A stretch of 64,000 nucleotides of DNA, from positions 35,335 through 99,334 of the forward strand of contig BDTG01000027.1 of assembly GCA_002897695.1 (NCBI GenBank), read 5' to 3'. The translations under genes and the position numbers were made by a program. This document shows positions 50,710 through 62,589 of the stretch, one piece after another. Positions within the stretch are counted from its first letter, which is position 1. Each line of letters opens with the position of its first letter. Below the pieces are notes generated by a model. The model saw nothing but the letters and a program-made list of their open reading frames with translations. It did no database searches and was not told the DNA's origin. This stretch comes from a bacterium BMS3Abin14. Its GTDB lineage: Bacteria > BMS3Abin14.

Positions 50710-51060
50710 AAAACACCCCCATCGAGTTGAATTGATAAATACAGGATGATACCCCCTTTGTCAATCCATCCCAAGTGTTTTAAAAGACGCCGGAGACCAA
50801 TATAACTATTTGAAATACCGGCTCTTTTATACGGAAAAGGGATTATGGTCCGGGGTAAAGGAAGGTGGTGGGCATGAAGTGCTTCATGTACCCGAAATCG
50901 GCCGGATAATCCTTTTGAGCCGGGGTTTTGGGGCCGGCCCAAACCAATCGCGGATTTCGGAATTCACATGGGCATTGCTTCTGGCAGTAATATCCGGTAA
51001 ATTCAATGCCAACTTGCGGCAAGGGGAGAGGGCAAACTTGACCCAAGGGAGGTTAAAGAG
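50710..51060. other. 351-base divergent gap between DUF177 and the selenoprotein gene
   Basis: It holds the operon promoter described separately, and on the other side a weak candidate for the rightward genes (TTGCTT at about 50977 and TAAATT after 17 bases). A short open frame at 50810-51064 overlaps these and is not convincing. No further elements were seen. Confidence 0.6.
50736..50764 (-). promoter_or_regulatory. Sigma-70-type promoter of the DUF177-rpmF-fab operon
   Basis: TTGACA (50764-50759), a 17-base spacer and TATTTA (50741-50736) lie just upstream of the DUF177 GTG. The -35 is perfect and the -10 matches three of six. Initiation would be near 50729. Confidence 0.6.
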
Positions 51061-51906
51061 GTGAAAAAGACCATTATGATACTTACCTTTGCATTGGCTG
51101 CTTGCGGATTTCAGGTGGCCCCTGCCCTGGCGGGCTTCGAGATTCAGGGCAGGATAACAGTTCCCCTCAAAGGGACTCCTGCCGATATTGCCGTTTCCCA
51201 GGACGGCAAATGGACCTTTGTCCTCACCACGGATGGGAAGATCCAGGTATTAAACTGGAAGGGTGAGTTGACACAGACCATCAAGAGTGAGGGGAGCTAC
51301 GACCGTGTGGAGTTCGCGCCCGGCAACAGGCTGATTCTGAGCAGCAGCAAAGGAAAGGTAATCAAGGTCGTTTTTCTCGATATTATCCACAACTTTGACA
51401 CCGCCGGGTCTCCCATCAAGGGCGCTGAAAACGCGACGGTGGCAATCACGGTCTTCAATGATTTTCAGTGACCATACTGTGCGAGGCTTGCGCCTCTACT
51501 CGAGCAGGTGCTCGACAGGTATCCAACTCAGGTTAAAGTGGTATTCAAAAACTTCCCGATCCGGAGCCACAGATATGCCGTGAAAGCCGCTGCTGCAGCC
51601 CTCGCAGCCGGCAAGCAGGACCGCTTCTGGGAGTTTCATGACCTTCTGTTCGAAAGCTACAATAAGCTTAATGATAAAATGATCACAGGTTTTGCCCGTA
51701 GTCTGAATCTGGACATGAAGCGATTTGAAAAAGACCGGGCGAGCGCAGAGGTGGCCAAGTTAATCAAAAGGGACCTTCAGGAGGCCCGCGATGCCGATGT
51801 CCGTGGAACACCCACCATCTTCGTCAACGGCAAGCTGTTGCAGGTCCGTTCCATGGACGGTTTTTCCAGGGCCATCGACCTGGAGCTTAAAAAGAGTTCT
51901 CCCTAA
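51061..51906 (+). CDS. DsbA-like thiol-disulfide oxidoreductase, probable selenoprotein (UPYC)
   Basis: Reading through one in-frame TGA gives 281 residues from the GTG at 51061 to the TAA at 51904-51906. The N-terminal part has a signal peptide (about 1-24, cleaved at ALAG), then a beta-rich segment (about 25-120). From residue 125 a thioredoxin/DsbA fold begins: VAITVFNDFQ, then U137-P-Y-C140 in place of CPYC, then VVFKNFPIRSHRYAVKAAA, and the cis-proline loop GTPTIFVNGK. The TGA sits exactly at the first redox cysteine, and the frame is open on both sides with normal codon use. A hairpin of bacterial SECIS shape follows. It is co-directional with a DsbC-like gene and mla genes. A pseudogene or sequencing error is the alternative. 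Confidence 0.9.
51469..51516 (+). promoter_or_regulatory. UGA selenocysteine codon and candidate bacterial SECIS hairpin
   Basis: The UGA is at 51469-51471. Downstream, 51500-51505 and 51510-51515 form a six-base stem with apical loop AGGU. The loop G bases lie about 35 bases after the UGA, within the range known for bacterial SECIS elements, and the GC-AGGU-GC top resembles that of E. coli fdhF. A smaller stem (gaggc/gcctc) lies at 51483-51496. SelB binding is inferred. Confidence 0.7.
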
Positions 51907-51918
51907 CAGAAAGGCGCC

Positions 51919-52728
51919 ATGAGAGAGTATCTGTTTGTCTTTATGTCCGCAATCATAGCTCTTTTCACCCTTGCCGGGAGCAATCCCCGGCCGGCCTCGG
52001 CCTTTGGCGGCGGCGGATGCGGGGAGGGGGCGTGCAGCAGCTGCCATGAACTGAAGGTGGAGGATGCCTCGAAAATTCTGGGAGGATTGGTAGGCAAGGT
52101 GGATCGGGTCGATTTCTCGAAGGTGCCCGGCCTTTATTCCGTTGAGGTGGAAAGCAAGGGGAAGAAATACCTTGTTTACGTGGATTTTTCAGAAAAATTC
52201 ATCATCTCGGGGAACGTCATCCGCATCGCCGATCGAACCAACATAACCCGGGAAAAGTTAATCAACATGCGCCGGGTCGATCCGGCGATTATACCGATTG
52301 GGGACGCTCTGGTTATTGGAAACCCCAAGGCTCCGAAAAAAATCATCGTTTTTACGGACCCTCAATGTCCCTACTGCAAGGAACTCCATCCTGAGCTCAA
52401 GAAGGTGGTCAAGGCCGATCCGGATATCGTATTCTTCATCAAACTCTACCCCTTAAGGAAGATACATCCGGACTCCTACCGCATAGCACAGGCCATTGTA
52501 TGCGAGGACTCCATCGACCTGCTGGAAGCGAGCTTTGCCGGAAAGAAGATCCCGGACCCTGAATGTGAGAGCAGCGTCGTTGACAACACCATTGCGCTTG
52601 CGCGAAAGCTCGGAATCTCCTCGACCCCGACCATGGTCCTGCCTGACGGGCGTCTGGCGCCGGGATTCATGCCGGCCAAGGACATATTGAGGCTTATCGA
52701 CGGCGGTGATGCAGGAAAAAACCAATAG
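51919..52728 (+). CDS. DsbC-like periplasmic thiol-disulfide protein with a CXXCH motif
   Basis: The 269-residue protein has a signal peptide (1-28), an N-terminal Cys-rich segment C34-GEGA-C39-SSCH (C39-C42-H43), a DsbC-like N-terminal domain (about 45-125) and a thioredoxin fold with DPQCPYCKELHP (C150, C153) and the cis-Pro loop SSTPTMVLPDGR. CXXCH can attach heme c, but a disulfide or metal site is also possible. It starts 12 bases after the selenoprotein gene and probably shares its message. By family it isomerises or reduces protein disulfides. Confidence 0.87.
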   Translation: MREYLFVFMSAIIALFTLAGSNPRPASAFGGGGCGEGACSSCHELKVEDASKILGGLVGKVDRVDFSKVPGLYSVEVESKGKKYLVYVDFSEKFIISGNVIRIADRTNITREKLINMRRVDPAIIPIGDALVIGNPKAPKKIIVFTDPQCPYCKELHPELKKVVKADPDIVFFIKLYPLRKIHPDSYRIAQAIVCEDSIDLLEASFAGKKIPDPECESSVVDNTIALARKLGISSTPTMVLPDGRLAPGFMPAKDILRLIDGGDAGKNQ

Positions 52729-52805: not shown

Positions 52806-53594
52806 TTGTTGGGACTTTTCCAAAGAATCGGCACCGAGTGTATCTACTTTCTGGAAAATACCGGCAGAATGGGCATGTTTTTGTTCACCTGCCTTCTCGG
52901 CGCCTTCACACCGCCGTACAGGGTCAAGGCAACCATACGCCAGATCTACTTCATCGGGGCCAGATCCGTATTCGTCATCATCTTTACCGGCCTCTTTACC
53001 GGAATGGTCCTCGGTCTGCAGGGGTACTACACCCTGAGCAATTTCGGGTCGGAAGGGCTCCTCGGCTCAGGCGTCGCCGTCAGCCTTCTGCGTGAACTTG
53101 GGCCGGTGCTCACAGCCTTGATGGTCATCGGGAGGGCCGGCTCGGCGATGTGCGCCGAGATCGGCATTATGAGAAATTCCGAGCAGATCGACGCGCTTGA
53201 GTGCATGGCCATCGACCCATACAAATTTGTCATGGCCCCGAAATACGTTGCCACTATCATCTCCATGCCCATCCTGACCTTCATCTTCGACATGATGGGC
53301 ATCATCGGCGGGTACCTGGTGGGCGTCTCCCTCCTGGGGCTGACCAGCGGGGCCTACTTTCAGGGCATGTACAGCGGCACGGTGTGGGCCGATATCCAGA
53401 TGGGCATGATCAAGGCTTTCCTCTTCGGGCTCGTGGTGGTGTGGATCTGTACCTCCAAGGGGTTCCACATCCACATGGAACGTTCCGGCGGCTTCGGGGC
53501 CGAGGGGGTCAGCAGAGCCACCACCAGCGCGGTAGTGCTTGCATCGGTAGTGGTCCTGGTCTGGGACTACATTATCAGCGCCATCATGTTATAA
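52806..53594 (+). CDS. mlaE: Mla-type ABC transporter permease (MlaE)
   Basis: The 262-residue membrane protein has the MlaE family sequence GLQGYYTLSNFGSEGLLGSG, RELGPVLTALMVIGRAGSAM and IGIMRNSEQIDALECMAIDP. A TTG start with AGGAGG upstream is used. It forms the inner-membrane core of a phospholipid transport complex. A hairpin lies in the 93-base gap before mlaF. Confidence 0.94.
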   Translation: MLGLFQRIGTECIYFLENTGRMGMFLFTCLLGAFTPPYRVKATIRQIYFIGARSVFVIIFTGLFTGMVLGLQGYYTLSNFGSEGLLGSGVAVSLLRELGPVLTALMVIGRAGSAMCAEIGIMRNSEQIDALECMAIDPYKFVMAPKYVATIISMPILTFIFDMMGIIGGYLVGVSLLGLTSGAYFQGMYSGTVWADIQMGMIKAFLFGLVVVWICTSKGFHIHMERSGGFGAEGVSRATTSAVVLASVVVLVWDYIISAIML

Positions 53595-53632
53595 TGAAAC
53601 ACCACGTTAAATACCCCTTGGTGCTTCATTAT
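53591..53632 (+). terminator. Hairpin between mlaE and mlaF
   Basis: Arms 53591-53604 and 53619-53632 pair over 14 bases with one mismatch; the mlaE stop lies in the left arm. A short ATTATTTTCC tail follows. The gap then holds a widespread cctctccccccgg/ggggagagg-type intergenic hairpin (about 53653-53673). It may partly attenuate mlaF. Confidence 0.5.
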
Positions 53633-53687
53633 TTTCCCCCTCACCTCAATCCTCTCCCCCCGGGGGAGAGGAAGTAAACGGGAACGG

Positions 53688-54485
53688 ATGACCGAAAAAA
53701 ATAGCACTGTTATCCAACTTGTAAACATCCATAAATCCTTCGGCGCCCAGCAGGTGCTGAGGGACGTCAATCTGACCATACGGAAAGGAACCACCACCGT
53801 TATTACAGGGCCAAGCGGGGTGGGCAAAAGTGTGATCCTCAAGATCATGATGGGTCTGATTAAACCGGACAGCGGCCTGGTCATGGTTCTCGGGGAAGAC
53901 ATAACCGGCTTGAAAAAAAAAGAGCTGCGCCACATAAGGATGAACTTCGGGGTCCTGTTTCAGAACGTAGCGCTTTTCGATTCCATGAACGTGTACGACA
54001 ATGTGGCCCTTCCACTGCGGGAACGCACCGCATTATCCGAAAAGGAGATCAGGAAGAACGTCGAAGAGAAACTGGAACTCATGGACCTGAAGGGAGTCAA
54101 CGGAAAATTCCCGGCTCAACTCAGCGGAGGAATGCTCAAGAGGGTCGGACTGGCCAGGGCGCTGATGCTGAACCCTGAAATCATCTTTTTCGACGAACCC
54201 ACCACCGGACTGGACGCACAGAAAAGCAACGAGATTTACCGTCTTTTCTTCAATGCTCAAAAGAAGTTCAACTACACGGCCATTATTGTAAGTCACGATT
54301 TTCCCAGGATATTGAAGTTGTGCGATTATATCGCCATCCTGTCGGACAGGACTATAATCAGCGCCGTAACTCCCGAGGAATTTCAGCTTTCGAAACACCC
54401 GGCGATCAGAAGCTTTGTTGAAACAACGATGGGACACATCTATCTGAGCGAAGAGGAGGAGACCGAATACTATGAAAAAATTTAA
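53688..54485 (+). CDS. mlaF: Mla-type ABC transporter ATPase (MlaF)
   Basis: The 265-residue ATPase has Walker A GPSGVGKSVILKIMMGL, signature LSGGMLKRVGLARALM, Walker B IIFFDEPTTGLD and H-loop IIVSHDFP. It powers lipid movement by MlaE. It overlaps mlaD by 14 bases. Confidence 0.95.
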   Translation: MTEKNSTVIQLVNIHKSFGAQQVLRDVNLTIRKGTTTVITGPSGVGKSVILKIMMGLIKPDSGLVMVLGEDITGLKKKELRHIRMNFGVLFQNVALFDSMNVYDNVALPLRERTALSEKEIRKNVEEKLELMDLKGVNGKFPAQLSGGMLKRVGLARALMLNPEIIFFDEPTTGLDAQKSNEIYRLFFNAQKKFNYTAIIVSHDFPRILKLCDYIAILSDRTIISAVTPEEFQLSKHPAIRSFVETTMGHIYLSEEEETEYYEKI

Positions 54486-54915
54486 CATGGAAATTGCGGT
54501 CGGTTTATTCATGGTTGCGGGCTTTCTCTGCTTCACGTACCTCTCCGTCAGGCTGGGGGATGTTCATCCCTTCGGTGAGAACAAGTATACCGTTATCGCG
54601 CGATTCAACTCCATATCAGGTCTCAAGAAAGGGGCCTCCATCGAGATGGCAGGGGTTCCCATCGGCAAGGTCAAGAGAATTCGGTTGGATCCGAAAGAGT
54701 ACGAGGCGGTGGTTCAATTCTCCATCGACAGGAATATCAAGCTGCAGGAGGACAGCATCGCCTCCATCAGAACCGAGGGGATCATTGGGAATCGGTACAT
54801 AAATATCACACCCGGAGGACTGGACAAAATCATCCAGCCTGGAGGAGAGATTACGGAAACCGAATCCGCCATCAGTATTGAAGAACTCATCAGCAAATAC
54901 ATTTTTGGAAAATGA
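54472..54915 (+). CDS. mlaD: MlaD-type lipid-binding protein
   Basis: The 147-residue protein has an N-terminal anchor (about 7-27) and an MCE domain: KYTVIARFNSISGLKKGASI, EMAGVPIGKVKRI and RTEGIIGNRYINITPGG. It forms the periplasmic hexameric ring of the transporter. Length is slightly short of the E. coli protein (183). Confidence 0.93.
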   Translation: MKKFNMEIAVGLFMVAGFLCFTYLSVRLGDVHPFGENKYTVIARFNSISGLKKGASIEMAGVPIGKVKRIRLDPKEYEAVVQFSIDRNIKLQEDSIASIRTEGIIGNRYINITPGGLDKIIQPGGEITETESAISIEELISKYIFGK

Positions 54916-55739
54916 GCGGAAGCAGCGGCATAGCTTCGCAGGCCGGTATCTGCGGCTTCATCCTCCTGGCCCTCCTGGCCCTGTCCCCCGCCCTGGCCCA
55001 TGCCCGGAACGTGGCAGGGACCACGGTGAGCACGGAAAATGGTTCCCTGAATTCCGCAGACGACACGGCCTTTGACGAAGACTTCGGGGACATTCAGGAC
55101 GATGGGGGGGGAGATTCGGCCGCCATCTCGGACCCCTTTGAGCCGGTCAACCGCGGTATCTTCTGGTTCAACGACAAGCTGTATTTCTATCTGATCAAGC
55201 CTGCCGCAAGGGTGTTGCGGATCGTTCCGGAACCGGCACGCCATTCTCTCGGCAACTTCTTTTCCAACCTCATGACGCCCATCCGGTTCGGCAGCGCCCT
55301 TCTTCAGTTCAAATTCGCGGGTGCAGAGACGGAACTTGGCCGATTTATAGTCAACACCACCGTTGGGGTGGCGGGGCTCTTCGATCCCGCGGAAAAGTGG
55401 GGCATGAGAAAGACGGATGAGGACTTCGGGCAGGTTCTGGGCTTCTACGGTCTCGGCCCGGGATTCTACATCGTCTGGCCCGTTCTGGGGCCGTCAAGCC
55501 TGAGGGGTACAGCCGGGCTGCTGGGTGACACCTACATGGACCCTCTCTACTATTATTATATAGAAACGGACAATGAGATAACGTCCACCGAGAGACTTGC
55601 GATTCTCGGTCTGGACAAGCTCAACACCCTTTCACTGGACAAGGACACCTACGAGGCGATCAAGAGGGATTCCATCGATCCGTACCTCTTCATCAGGAAT
55701 GCCTACTCCCAGAACCGCGAGGGAAGGATAAAAAAATAG
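54912..55739 (+). CDS. mlaA: MlaA (VacJ)-type protein
   Basis: The 275-residue protein has a signal-like N-terminus (about 12-32) without a clear lipobox, an acidic linker, and the MlaA core: DPFEPVNRGIFWFNDKLYFY, ADFGQVLGFYG-like EDFGQVLGFYGLGPGFYIVW and DRFSLVVD-like terminal region. It extracts lipids from the outer membrane. The start overlaps mlaD (ATGA). Confidence 0.92.
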   Translation: MSGSSGIASQAGICGFILLALLALSPALAHARNVAGTTVSTENGSLNSADDTAFDEDFGDIQDDGGGDSAAISDPFEPVNRGIFWFNDKLYFYLIKPAARVLRIVPEPARHSLGNFFSNLMTPIRFGSALLQFKFAGAETELGRFIVNTTVGVAGLFDPAEKWGMRKTDEDFGQVLGFYGLGPGFYIVWPVLGPSSLRGTAGLLGDTYMDPLYYYYIETDNEITSTERLAILGLDKLNTLSLDKDTYEAIKRDSIDPYLFIRNAYSQNREGRIKK

Positions 55740-55747
55740 GAATATCC

Positions 55748-56377
55748 ATGGAGAAACGCATGCCAAAAAGACGAGGACTCCTGGAAATGGCCGTCGTTGT
55801 GATGTGCCTTTTTCTGCTTCCGGCCATCGCCCTGGCCGGTCCGCAGGACCAGATCAGGCAGATGGTGGATTCTGTTATCGGAATCGTTCAGGACAAGGCA
55901 ATAGGTGACAAGGCCAAGGAGGACCGGATCGCCTCCCTGGTGAAGGAACGTTTCGACTTCGATGGCATGGCCAGAAGGGCGCTGGGAAAGAACTGGAGAA
56001 AGGCCGATTCCGGACAGAGAGAAAAATTCACCGGGCTATTTACCGATCTCCTGGAGACCACCTACTCGGGAAGGATCATCAACTATTCCGGGGAAAGGGT
56101 AAAATACACGAGGGAAAGGATCAGGGGCAACCGCGCCATCATCGACACGTTTATTGTTTCCGGCAACAAGGACATACCGGTCATTTACAGGATGGTAAAA
56201 AGCTCAGGCGGATGGTTCGTCGTTGATGTGGTGATCGAGGAAGTGAGCCTGATACGCAACTTCCGTGACACCTACTCCGAGATCATCGCAAACGAAGGGT
56301 TTACCGGCCTCTTCGATCGGATGGCAAGGAAGATCAAGGAACTGAAAAATTCTTCTGACGGAGGAGTCGCACAGTGA
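55748..56377 (+). CDS. mlaC: MlaC-type periplasmic lipid carrier
   Basis: The 209-residue protein has a signal peptide (about 10-30, ALAG cleavage) and the MlaC/Ttg2D fold: RFDFDGMARRALGKNWRKA, FTDLLETTYSGRI and SGGWFVVDVVIEEVSLIRNF, YSEIIANEGFTGLFDRM. It shuttles phospholipids between MlaA and MlaFEDB. It is followed by the cyclic-nucleotide-binding gene with a four-base overlap. Confidence 0.93.
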   Translation: MEKRMPKRRGLLEMAVVVMCLFLLPAIALAGPQDQIRQMVDSVIGIVQDKAIGDKAKEDRIASLVKERFDFDGMARRALGKNWRKADSGQREKFTGLFTDLLETTYSGRIINYSGERVKYTRERIRGNRAIIDTFIVSGNKDIPVIYRMVKSSGGWFVVDVVIEEVSLIRNFRDTYSEIIANEGFTGLFDRMARKIKELKNSSDGGVAQ

Positions 56378-59532: not shown

Positions 59533-61506
59533 CTAACTCCATCCCTGGTTTCGAAGCTCCAGCCTCTTTCGATGCAGGTGCATTTTAACGATCTGCGCTG
59601 CAAGTACCGGCTCTGGTTCCGTAAACACCTTTGCACCGAACCTGTTGATAAGGCCGTCCTGGCTGAAGAAGTCCGCGACATCATTGCTGCACCGTTCAAG
59701 TTCCTCCGGATTGTCACTGGAAGGTTTAACGGTGGGCTGAGGGATGTGGCCCGGAAACCCTATGGTGTTGCTGATACCGTGAACAAGGAAAGTCACCCCC
59801 TGGCCCAGGGTTTTCTCGTTCCCCGGTTCCGGACCGATGAACATGAAAGGCATGTCATGTGTCTTCAATCCCGCTGCTTCAGCCAGGGTCAGGAACAATC
59901 TTAAAGAGCGTGCATTGTCGACACAGCCGCCCACAGCGAGAACGGGCGGGATTCCCAGATTTTCCAGAAGGACGCGCGTATCATGCGGAGTCATTTCGGC
60001 GGCGTCAGGAGCGCAAAGCCCTGCATTCAGAAGCGCGTGGGAACAGCACCCGGTGGTGGTAAGGAGGATACCATCAGCGATCAGTTCCCTGGCGATGGTC
60101 ACGTGGCCGCTCTCGTAGGCCACCTTGGGTGTGTTGCATCCCACGATTGTGCATATCCCCCTGAACTTTCCGGTTTTGAGCAGCTCCACCAGACGGTCCG
60201 CGCCGTCGAACGCTTCTAAAATGGCCTCGTAACTCCACCCTGTGAGAGCCTCGGTCCTGTAGTCGGGGATGTGGATATTGCGCCTTTTCCTGCGGCCGAA
60301 GGACTCCACAGCGCTGCGGGCGACATATAATGCGTTGTCGTCCAGCGATCCGGGGTCTTCCGGGTCGAAGGGCACATGAACGGCTCCGGGAATCCGGTTG
60401 GATCTGCACGTCGTGATTATCTCCGTCCCGAAGCAGTCCGCTGTGATTTTCATGCCCGGTATGATGCACTGCATATCAACGATCACGGTATCCACGGCGC
60501 CGGTACCGATAGCGAGTTCCTGCCCCAGGATATTGGTCACAGTCGGTATGCCGTAACGCGCAAGGAGTTCGTTTCCCGTGCAGCACATCCCACCCAGAAC
60601 GATGCCTTCGGCCCCCAACTGCCTGGCCAGCGACTGGATCTCGGGTGTGTGGATCTTCTCCAGGATCTTTTCCACCATAACAGGGGAATGGCCGTGAAGG
60701 AGGATGTTGACGTGATCCTCCTTGAGGACTCCGAAGTTCACCACTGTTTTTTGCGGCCGGGGTATTCCGTAGAGAATCTCCGTCGCGAGGGACGTCCCGA
60801 AGAGAGTGGAATAACAATAGGCCAGTGTGGAGCGAAGTTCCTGATCCACAAGGGCCATCCAGTCCGAGCAGGCGCCGAGAGTAGTCATGTGCAGGGCTTC
60901 CATTATCTCGTAGGCCGACGATCGGGGCAGGATATCGAGTCTTCGCCAGAGGTCCTTGTTTTCCTGTCCGGCGTACGCTTCCAGCAGCCGGAGTTCACCT
61001 TTCTTCATTTTTCCCAGGTCCTCGAGAAGGATTTCGGCGATCTCGCCCGCAATCGCCTCGATCTTGCGGTTTTCGACCTCGATCCCAAGGCGGCCGGCCA
61101 TCTCGAAAACCCGATCCTCACCTTTGATCTTTATATTTACGGTCCCGTCCCTGACCGCCATGATGGTGAGATATATTTCATGTGCATGACGGGCGTGTGC
61201 GGCAAGGCCGGAAACAAGCGCGCGCAGCAGGTTACCCATAACGATCAGGTTCATGTCTTTTCCGCAGACCCCGTGTGTGGATTTACGGCTGATCGTGCAT
61301 GGACCCCACTGACACATCCGGCAGCATATTCCCTGCAGGCCGAACCTGCACTGGGGCTGCTGAGCCGCGAAACGATCCAGAAAAATCGGAACCCCTTCCT
61401 TTTTCAGCTTCGTTATCAGTTCCTTTGCCGCGGGGTTGGGGGTGCGTTTCAGCACCTCATCCTTTTCCGGCATATTCGTGTTTAAATACAAATACTTGTA
61501 ACTCAA
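59533..61506 (-). CDS. cooS: Ni-dependent anaerobic carbon monoxide dehydrogenase
   Basis: The 657-residue protein has the B and D cluster cysteines in the exact spacing of CODH-II (C53, C61, C62, C65, C70, C81), so the intersubunit D cluster is probably kept. C-cluster ligands are visible: His in LLHGHSPVMV, Cys in GGMCCTGNELLARYG, VDMQCIIPGM, TIVGCNTPKVAY, TTGCCSHALLNAGLC and VGGCVDNARSLRLF. It oxidises CO to CO2. A TTG start at 61506 (GGAGGA upstream) fits better than the ATG at 61473. No cooC, cooF or acs gene is visible next to it. The transporter genes follow on the same strand. Confidence 0.95.
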   Translation of the reverse strand: MSYKYLYLNTNMPEKDEVLKRTPNPAAKELITKLKKEGVPIFLDRFAAQQPQCRFGLQGICCRMCQWGPCTISRKSTHGVCGKDMNLIVMGNLLRALVSGLAAHARHAHEIYLTIMAVRDGTVNIKIKGEDRVFEMAGRLGIEVENRKIEAIAGEIAEILLEDLGKMKKGELRLLEAYAGQENKDLWRRLDILPRSSAYEIMEALHMTTLGACSDWMALVDQELRSTLAYCYSTLFGTSLATEILYGIPRPQKTVVNFGVLKEDHVNILLHGHSPVMVEKILEKIHTPEIQSLARQLGAEGIVLGGMCCTGNELLARYGIPTVTNILGQELAIGTGAVDTVIVDMQCIIPGMKITADCFGTEIITTCRSNRIPGAVHVPFDPEDPGSLDDNALYVARSAVESFGRRKRRNIHIPDYRTEALTGWSYEAILEAFDGADRLVELLKTGKFRGICTIVGCNTPKVAYESGHVTIARELIADGILLTTTGCCSHALLNAGLCAPDAAEMTPHDTRVLLENLGIPPVLAVGGCVDNARSLRLFLTLAEAAGLKTHDMPFMFIGPEPGNEKTLGQGVTFLVHGISNTIGFPGHIPQPTVKPSSDNPEELERCSNDVADFFSQDGLINRFGAKVFTEPEPVLAAQIVKMHLHRKRLELRNQGWS

Positions 61507-61860: not shown

Positions 61861-62589
61861 CTATAATGGTTGGATTCCCAGGTCCGGGACCAAGGACAGA
61901 AACCACTGGATATAGCCGGTCAAGAGCATTATTCCGAAAAAAATCATGACAAGAGCGTTCAAATAAATGAAGACCAGTTGGTACTTCTTAAGAAATTTCA
62001 TGGAGCTCAGGAACAGATTGATAAAAAGACCGAAGACCAGGAAAGGTACTGCCAAGCCCATTGAGTACACACCCAGAAGCTTTATTCCATATATCGCCGA
62101 GGCCTCTCCAGTGGCAAAAAGGAGGATCGAACTGAGCGTAGGGCCGGAGCAAGGCACCCAGCCGGCGGCAAAACCGAGCCCGACGAGAAAACTCCCAAGA
62201 TATCCCACGGGTTTTTCGCGAAAATGATAACGTATTTCCCTGGAAAGCGATTTCAGATGGAAGACACCCACGGTGGTCAGGGCGAAAATGATGATAATCA
62301 CTCCGCCTGTGATCCTTATCCATTCTTTATATTGGAAAAACAGATTGCCCACGTAAGACATGGCTGATCCCATGATCATGAACAGCACGGAAAAACCCAG
62401 GATGAAAGCTAAGGAGTGCGACAGTGTTCTCGTGATCACCTGTTTCTTTTTTGCGTCGGAAACGAGGGTGTCAAAGGAATTGCCACTGATGAAAGAGACG
62501 TAAGATGGAAAGAGGCCGAGTGAGCAGGGAGAGAGAAAAGATAACAATCCCGCAGCGAAGGCTAGATAATACGGAATGTGCTCAGTCAC
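61861..62589 (-). CDS. ccdA: CcdA-type thiol-disulfide transmembrane protein
   Basis: The 242-residue protein has six membrane helices and the CcdA cysteines: LSFLSPCSLGLFPSYVSF (first Cys) and GWVPCSGPTLSSILLFAT (second). It passes electrons across the membrane to periplasmic thioredoxins for cytochrome c assembly or oxidoreductases. The start is GTG at 62589. It is followed leftward by cooS, with a shared homologous leader upstream of each gene. Confidence 0.93.
   Translation of the reverse strand: MTEHIPYYLAFAAGLLSFLSPCSLGLFPSYVSFISGNSFDTLVSDAKKKQVITRTLSHSLAFILGFSVLFMIMGSAMSYVGNLFFQYKEWIRITGGVIIIIFALTTVGVFHLKSLSREIRYHFREKPVGYLGSFLVGLGFAAGWVPCSGPTLSSILLFATGEASAIYGIKLLGVYSMGLAVPFLVFGLFINLFLSSMKFLKKYQLVFIYLNALVMIFFGIMLLTGYIQWFLSLVPDLGIQPL

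Follow-up and report, generated by a model that had tools for sequence, protein, structure and literature searches.

A single in-frame TGA interrupts a reading frame on the forward strand of a 64,000-nucleotide stretch of DNA (the window) from the bacterium BMS3Abin14. The question raised by this locus is whether the codon ends a broken gene or is read as selenocysteine (Sec) in an exported enzyme and, if so, what that enzyme does. The first-pass annotation, made from the letters alone, had favoured a DsbA-like UPYC selenoprotein, with the TGA exactly at the first Cys of CPYC. This assignment is borne out by five independent lines, namely orthologs, covariation in the SECIS hairpin, the sel genes of the host, selection and an unchanged genetic code, and the gene at 51061-51906 almost certainly encodes an exported selenoprotein with Sec at the UGA, as judged from comparison of sequences. 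Its layout is a signal peptide followed by a two-blade domain and a DsbA-fold domain (Table 1).

Table 1. Features of the selenoprotein gene and its surroundings (window coordinates)
Feature	Position	Strand	Basis or remark
Ribosome-binding site GGGAGG	51047..51052	+	8 nt upstream of GTG start; sequence
Selenoprotein gene (almost certain)	51061..51906	+	281 codons from GTG to TAA, the Sec being codon 137
Signal peptide, residues 1-24 (...APALA/GF)	51061..51132	+	Seen by eye and in an alignment of orthologs
N-terminal domain, residues 25-105, a WD40/YVTN-type beta-propeller piece predicted to have two blades	51133..51375	+	
DsbA/ScsC-type thioredoxin-fold catalytic domain, residues 112-279	51394..51897	+	Pfam and structure match
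UGA codon, selenocysteine 137 (UPYC)	51469..51471	+	Ortholog comparison
Resolving Cys140 of UPYC	51478..51480	+	Invariant in alignments
Accessory hairpin GAGGC-UUGC-GCCUC, between UGA and SECIS	51483..51496	+	Conserved only near the host's family
SECIS hairpin UCGAGC-AGGU-GCUCGA, loop 51506-51509	51500..51515	+	Covariation with control
Thr250-Pro251, cis-Pro loop VRGTP	51808..51813	+	Pro251 invariant in alignments; position by homology
DsbC-like gene, CPYC with Cys	51919..52728	+	12 nt downstream of selenoprotein gene

The frame was described at the outset as open on either side of one TGA, and this codon is indeed the sole interruption between the GTG and the TAA. The signal peptide noted in the same annotation is visible by eye (MKKTIMILTFALAACGFQVAPALA/GF), and the junction A-x-A/[GA]F at its end recurs in the alignment of close orthologs. 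A lipoprotein reading, based on LAAC at residues 12-15, was rejected because orthologs do not have that Cys.

As had been anticipated, the gene is easily split in annotation, since the standard table gives two ORFs, 51061-51471 and 51508-51906. These are the basis for regarding the UGA as a real stop, in which case the locus would be a pseudogene or a pair of genes, the second starting from GTG 51508. Such a reading is strongly disfavoured and very improbable. The second ORF would begin inside the hairpin, with no obvious ribosome site, and would be without the active site. Of 42 named homologs, 26 keep TGA at this codon and the rest have Cys; within the host family, at least nine further genomes have an ortholog with TGA. 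Constraint is also equal on both sides of the codon; against the congener, dN/dS is 0.22 before the TGA (dN 0.105, dS 0.474) and 0.19 after it (dN 0.116, dS 0.598), with no indel. In-frame TGA events with at least 20 open codons before and at least 80 after number 62 in the window, 16 of which lie outside any larger ORF. Two other events also have a hairpin passing a simple scan; only at this site does a G-loop hairpin go together with a protein family demonstrated to run across the TGA.

The SECIS hairpin, placed by the first-pass annotation at about 28 bases past the TGA with an AGGU loop, is found there. Its 6-bp stem begins 28 nt and its loop 34 nt downstream of the UGA, with an energy of -8.1 kcal/mol when folded alone. 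Published constraints on bSECIS elements comprise a loop of 3-9 nt with G in the first two positions, a stem of 4-16 bp, a spacing of 16-37 nt after the UGA and an MFE <= -7.5 (PMC13188914), and the hairpin falls within all four. The energy of the 62-nt stretch folded alone is ordinary (z -1.26), so the weight of the SECIS case lies on comparative evidence. Of the 26 TGA genes, 25 have a loop of AGGU or AGUU whose start lies exactly 34 nt past the UGA, and the 26th has one mismatch. Across 35 TGA sequences, 95.5% of the stem cells are paired and two-sided changes are seen in five of the seven pairs. The cells with such changes number 19, versus 3.3 in shuffles, and none of 500 shuffles was as high. 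In a control set of 18 Cys homologs, these columns are 45% paired with no clear pairing signal.

Two further arguments from the RNA were abandoned. A stem mismatch in the Cys congener was dropped as decisive proof of SECIS decay; a TGA homolog (L086) has the identical mismatch, which alone is therefore no marker of lost function. The accessory hairpin is convincing in 11 close sequences. Over the 35 sequences it is 69% paired, with covariation no better than a slid control, and for this reason it is not counted among the general elements of the SECIS.

Reading of the UGA as an ordinary Cys or Trp, through suppression or a changed code, would agree with the Cys present at the site in 16 of the 42 homologs, and is nevertheless very unlikely. 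Other genes in the window terminate at TGA, which indicates a standard genetic code, and the covarying SECIS-type hairpin is restricted to the TGA genes. The host genome also holds a full Sec pathway. The four genes which the first-pass annotation had proposed to look for were all recovered: selA (575 bits), selB (361 bits), tRNA-Sec (selC; 72.7 bits, anticodon TCA), on a contig other than that of the window, and selD (L065), which itself contains one in-frame TGA, as do its relatives. Within the 64-kb window, an Rfam scan gave no match and ARAGORN found no tRNA.

The wider family was surveyed in 84,980 species genomes, and the best 80 loci were inspected. The whole architecture is present in 42 of these 80 (the named homologs), 26 with TGA and 16 with Cys, so that Cys or Sec occupies exactly the position at which the first-pass annotation had suggested looking for Cys. 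Most of the 42 come from MAGs that bear the labels Desulfobacterota/Deltaproteobacteria and Nitrospirota, and the relatives are mostly anaerobic bacteria. Among the isolates, Desulforhopalus (sp. IMCC35007) has the TGA for Sec, and Geothermobacter hydrogeniphilus (HR-1), Desulfogranum japonicum and Desulfobulbus elongatus have Cys. One other genome of the genus was searched, that of the congener, and it carries TGC at the site in a gene for an 80% identical protein; a genome of another family likewise has TGC. At least 12 Sec/Cys exchanges are required on the tree, gain and loss not being told apart. Two family members with TGA have altered dipeptides, URYC and ULYC in place of UPYC (L086 5310-5387 and L103 5415-5492).

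The TGA differs from the TGC of the congener by one base, as a sequencing or assembly error of a TGC or TGT codon would. Such an error is hardly conceivable here, as assemblies made independently, from several phyla, share this codon and differ in the synonymous bases around it.

The catalytic domain is recognised by PF13462 (Thioredoxin_4; E 1.7e-25), which runs across the UGA site, and by PF01323 (DsbA; E 4.5e-21, 75.9 bits against a cut-off of 25.6), which covers residues 129-272 and spans U137-C140. The AlphaFold2 model of the whole chain has a pLDDT of 94.9. The best structural matches of its catalytic domain (Z 20-24) are 3gyk (thioredoxin-like), Caulobacter and Proteus ScsC, alpha-DsbA2 and BdbD. 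The resemblance to the ScsC fold is seen with 7rgv (Z 22.6, rmsd 2.0, 173 aligned) and 5idr (Z 21.9, rmsd 1.9, 164 aligned), and the Thr-Pro of the VRGTP loop corresponds to the Thr-cis-Pro reported for ScsC. The modelled domain thus comes nearest to the ScsC-type enzymes, a group that includes several trimeric disulfide isomerases.

Matches to the full model were filled by the DsbA domain, and the N-terminal domain was therefore predicted and searched alone. The resulting model (pLDDT 91.8) contains seven strands in two blades, in keeping with the beta-rich domain first proposed. Profile matches are to WD40/YVTN propellers (2ymu, E 3e-31; 1l0q, E 2e-27), and the structure matches propellers with Z of about 10. 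The top Foldseek match, also covering most of the target, is the designed two-bladed v13Bagel2 (8pr9; TM 0.67/0.73), and Pizza2-SR matches with TM 0.68/0.73. No Pfam model reaches its gathering score on this domain in the selenoprotein. It is confidently predicted to be a two-bladed beta-propeller piece, with only two blades per chain in the predicted monomer. The 15 residues that open the mature protein (25-39) precede the first blade; they are conserved and placed with pLDDT >80, and form no strand in the monomer model. Such confidently placed yet unpaired residues would be expected if they complete a blade of a neighbouring chain, and are taken as a hint in this direction.

The gene product would be a periplasmic thiol-disulfide exchange enzyme, most likely acting as an isomerase or reductase beside the co-encoded DsbC-like protein. 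In the proposed mechanism, SelB with Sec-tRNA(Sec) would bind the hairpin 28 nt past the UGA, and Sec would be inserted as the attacking residue of the UPYC active site. Export would probably follow the general secretion path, and thiol-disulfide exchange would take place at UPYC, as judged from the family. The Sec would lower the pKa of the nucleophile and speed exchange under anaerobic conditions. The blade module may self-associate, which would hold several active sites together.

The DsbC-like gene adjoins the selenoprotein gene throughout the host family, directly following it, an arrangement in keeping with a common role in disulfide repair. A conserved genomic partner for the whole family was sought and rejected, as this adjacency is limited to the host family; elsewhere the gene has varied neighbours, among them the PhoH/YbeY-like genes that adjoin it in Desulfobulbales-type loci. 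The DsbC-like protein has an N-terminal CGEGACSSCH stretch with a CxxCH motif, possibly for haem or metal binding. Downstream of the two Dsb genes lies an Mla-type lipid transport operon (mlaE, mlaF, mlaD, mlaA, mlaC; 52806-56377). The gene at 59533-61506, judged by eye to be CooS-like, encodes the catalytic subunit of a carbon monoxide dehydrogenase, which is consistent with an anaerobic host. At 61861-62589 is a CcdA/DsbD-type membrane protein, the sole PF02683 match found in the host genome, which may carry reductant to thiol enzymes of the periplasm.

The choice between isomerase and oxidase is informed by PmScsC, which loses its isomerase activity and turns into an oxidase when the N-terminal part responsible for trimerisation is taken away (PMC5524982). 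The oligomeric state would thus decide between the two activities. Constructs of two WD40 blades assemble as tetramers (PMC6805158), and Pizza2 assembles as trimers (PMC7337062). Taken with the behaviour of PmScsC, the oligomerisation of two-bladed pieces suggests an oligomeric seleno-isomerase or reductase, and it is proposed that the blades oligomerise to give a multivalent seleno-isomerase.

A monomeric dithiol oxidase resembling classical DsbA, with the two-blade module as a mere substrate- or membrane-docking piece, is a real possibility, if short of probable. DsbA and BdbD are close fold matches, and PmScsC becomes an oxidase once its trimerisation part is lost. Against it are the trimeric isomerases ScsC and alpha-DsbA2 among the nearest catalytic folds, the oligomerisation of two-bladed pieces in the literature and the fact that DsbB was not found in four genomes of the host family. 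The only VKOR-type match in the host genome lies inside an SPW-like membrane protein (L150 985-2520, reverse strand) and is of doubtful relevance, and neither VKOR nor DsbB was retained as an oxidant partner.

For the proposed multivalent enzyme, a specific arrangement is put forward tentatively. The two-bladed fragment may close only by oligomerising, with three or four chains forming one propeller ring that would bear three or four Sec sites, as a multivalent disulfide isomerase. It belongs to this same tentative picture that multivalency would come from an intermolecular propeller and not from a helical stalk or a DsbC_N dimer. If the two-blade domain does oligomerise, it would represent a natural cross-chain propeller and a new design for a disulfide isomerase.

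Other DsbA-like selenoprotein candidates were noted in the genomes searched. At L055 863-2401 (G002), a second DsbA-like selenoprotein (UPFC) has a frame that continues into a region resembling peroxiredoxin, where the U of a PTUSGQ motif is a second TGA; this may be one fusion protein with two Sec or a pair of adjacent genes. Relatives of this UPFC protein with TGA occur in other genomes of the family, and a search at E 1e-20 found none in the genome of the window. UPAC is present in short exported proteins of DsbA-like type that lack the propeller domain, encoded at L109, L110, L121 and L127, with SECIS sequence and spacing nearly the same as in the propeller family (CTCGAGCAG[GT]TGCTCGAG). 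UPFC DsbA-like selenoprotein candidates, likewise without the propeller domain, were seen in genomes of other families at L058 (about 1043) and L059 (about 1030, reverse strand).

The family is a well-supported case, on sequence grounds, of selenium in the periplasmic disulfide chemistry of anaerobes. As the standard code shows it as two broken ORFs, at least 26 named genome records in the sample may hold mis-annotated copies. The occurrence of Sec and Cys versions in one genus, 80% identical and one base apart, together with the repeated exchanges on the tree, makes it a good system in which to study the benefit of Sec.

The first-pass annotation had called periplasmic selenoproteins of this kind uncommon. 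This is too strong, since the DsbA-like selenoproteins with UxxC, known from 2005 onwards, form a catalogued family (PMC1088965, PMC1794560, PMC13188914); its remark on an unusual architecture stands, in that the N-terminal domain is two-bladed and conserved. The catalogued proteins (form 1, PF01323, UxxC; the Sargasso Sea set and later catalogues) share the DsbA fold, Sec as the first residue of UxxC and a bacterial SECIS directly downstream (PMC1088965, PMC13188914). No N-terminal propeller-type domain is mentioned for them in the available portions of these sources, and the distinction is one of description rather than of comparison with the reference sequence NIP15863.1. The kind of protein is thus not new, and the propeller-bearing subfamily appears to be undescribed; no description of a propeller-DsbA selenoprotein was found in a partial coverage of the literature, and no NCBIfam model covers the subfamily. 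The best of these models, NF041057 (Rcas_1661 family thioredoxin-like (seleno)lipoprotein, 'DsbG-like'), has a related catalytic domain (E 5.9e-21) and may carry Sec. The gene scores 75.1 bits against its curated cut-off of 190, over residues 108-273 only, and NF041057 is a lipoprotein by name.

DsbC and DsbG are likewise exported thioredoxin-fold proteins with an additional N-terminal domain. In their case this is the DsbC_N dimerisation domain, to which the selenoprotein has no Pfam match. The oligomeric DsbA-like group of ScsC, alpha-DsbA2 and BcfH provides the closest catalytic folds, and ScsC similarly has a Thr-cis-Pro facing the active site. The ScsC members covered here trimerise through N-terminal helices and use Cys, whereas the selenoprotein has a two-bladed beta module and a Sec nucleophile; the helical trimerisation region is absent from the model, in which the region is predicted to be beta. 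The known counterparts of the N-terminal domain itself are the two-bladed blocks WRAP (6R5X), v13Bagel2 (8PR9) and Pizza2, and its matches to blocks of this kind extend over most of the target. Those blocks are engineered and form trimers or tetramers, whereas the domain described here is natural, is fused to a redox domain and is predicted.
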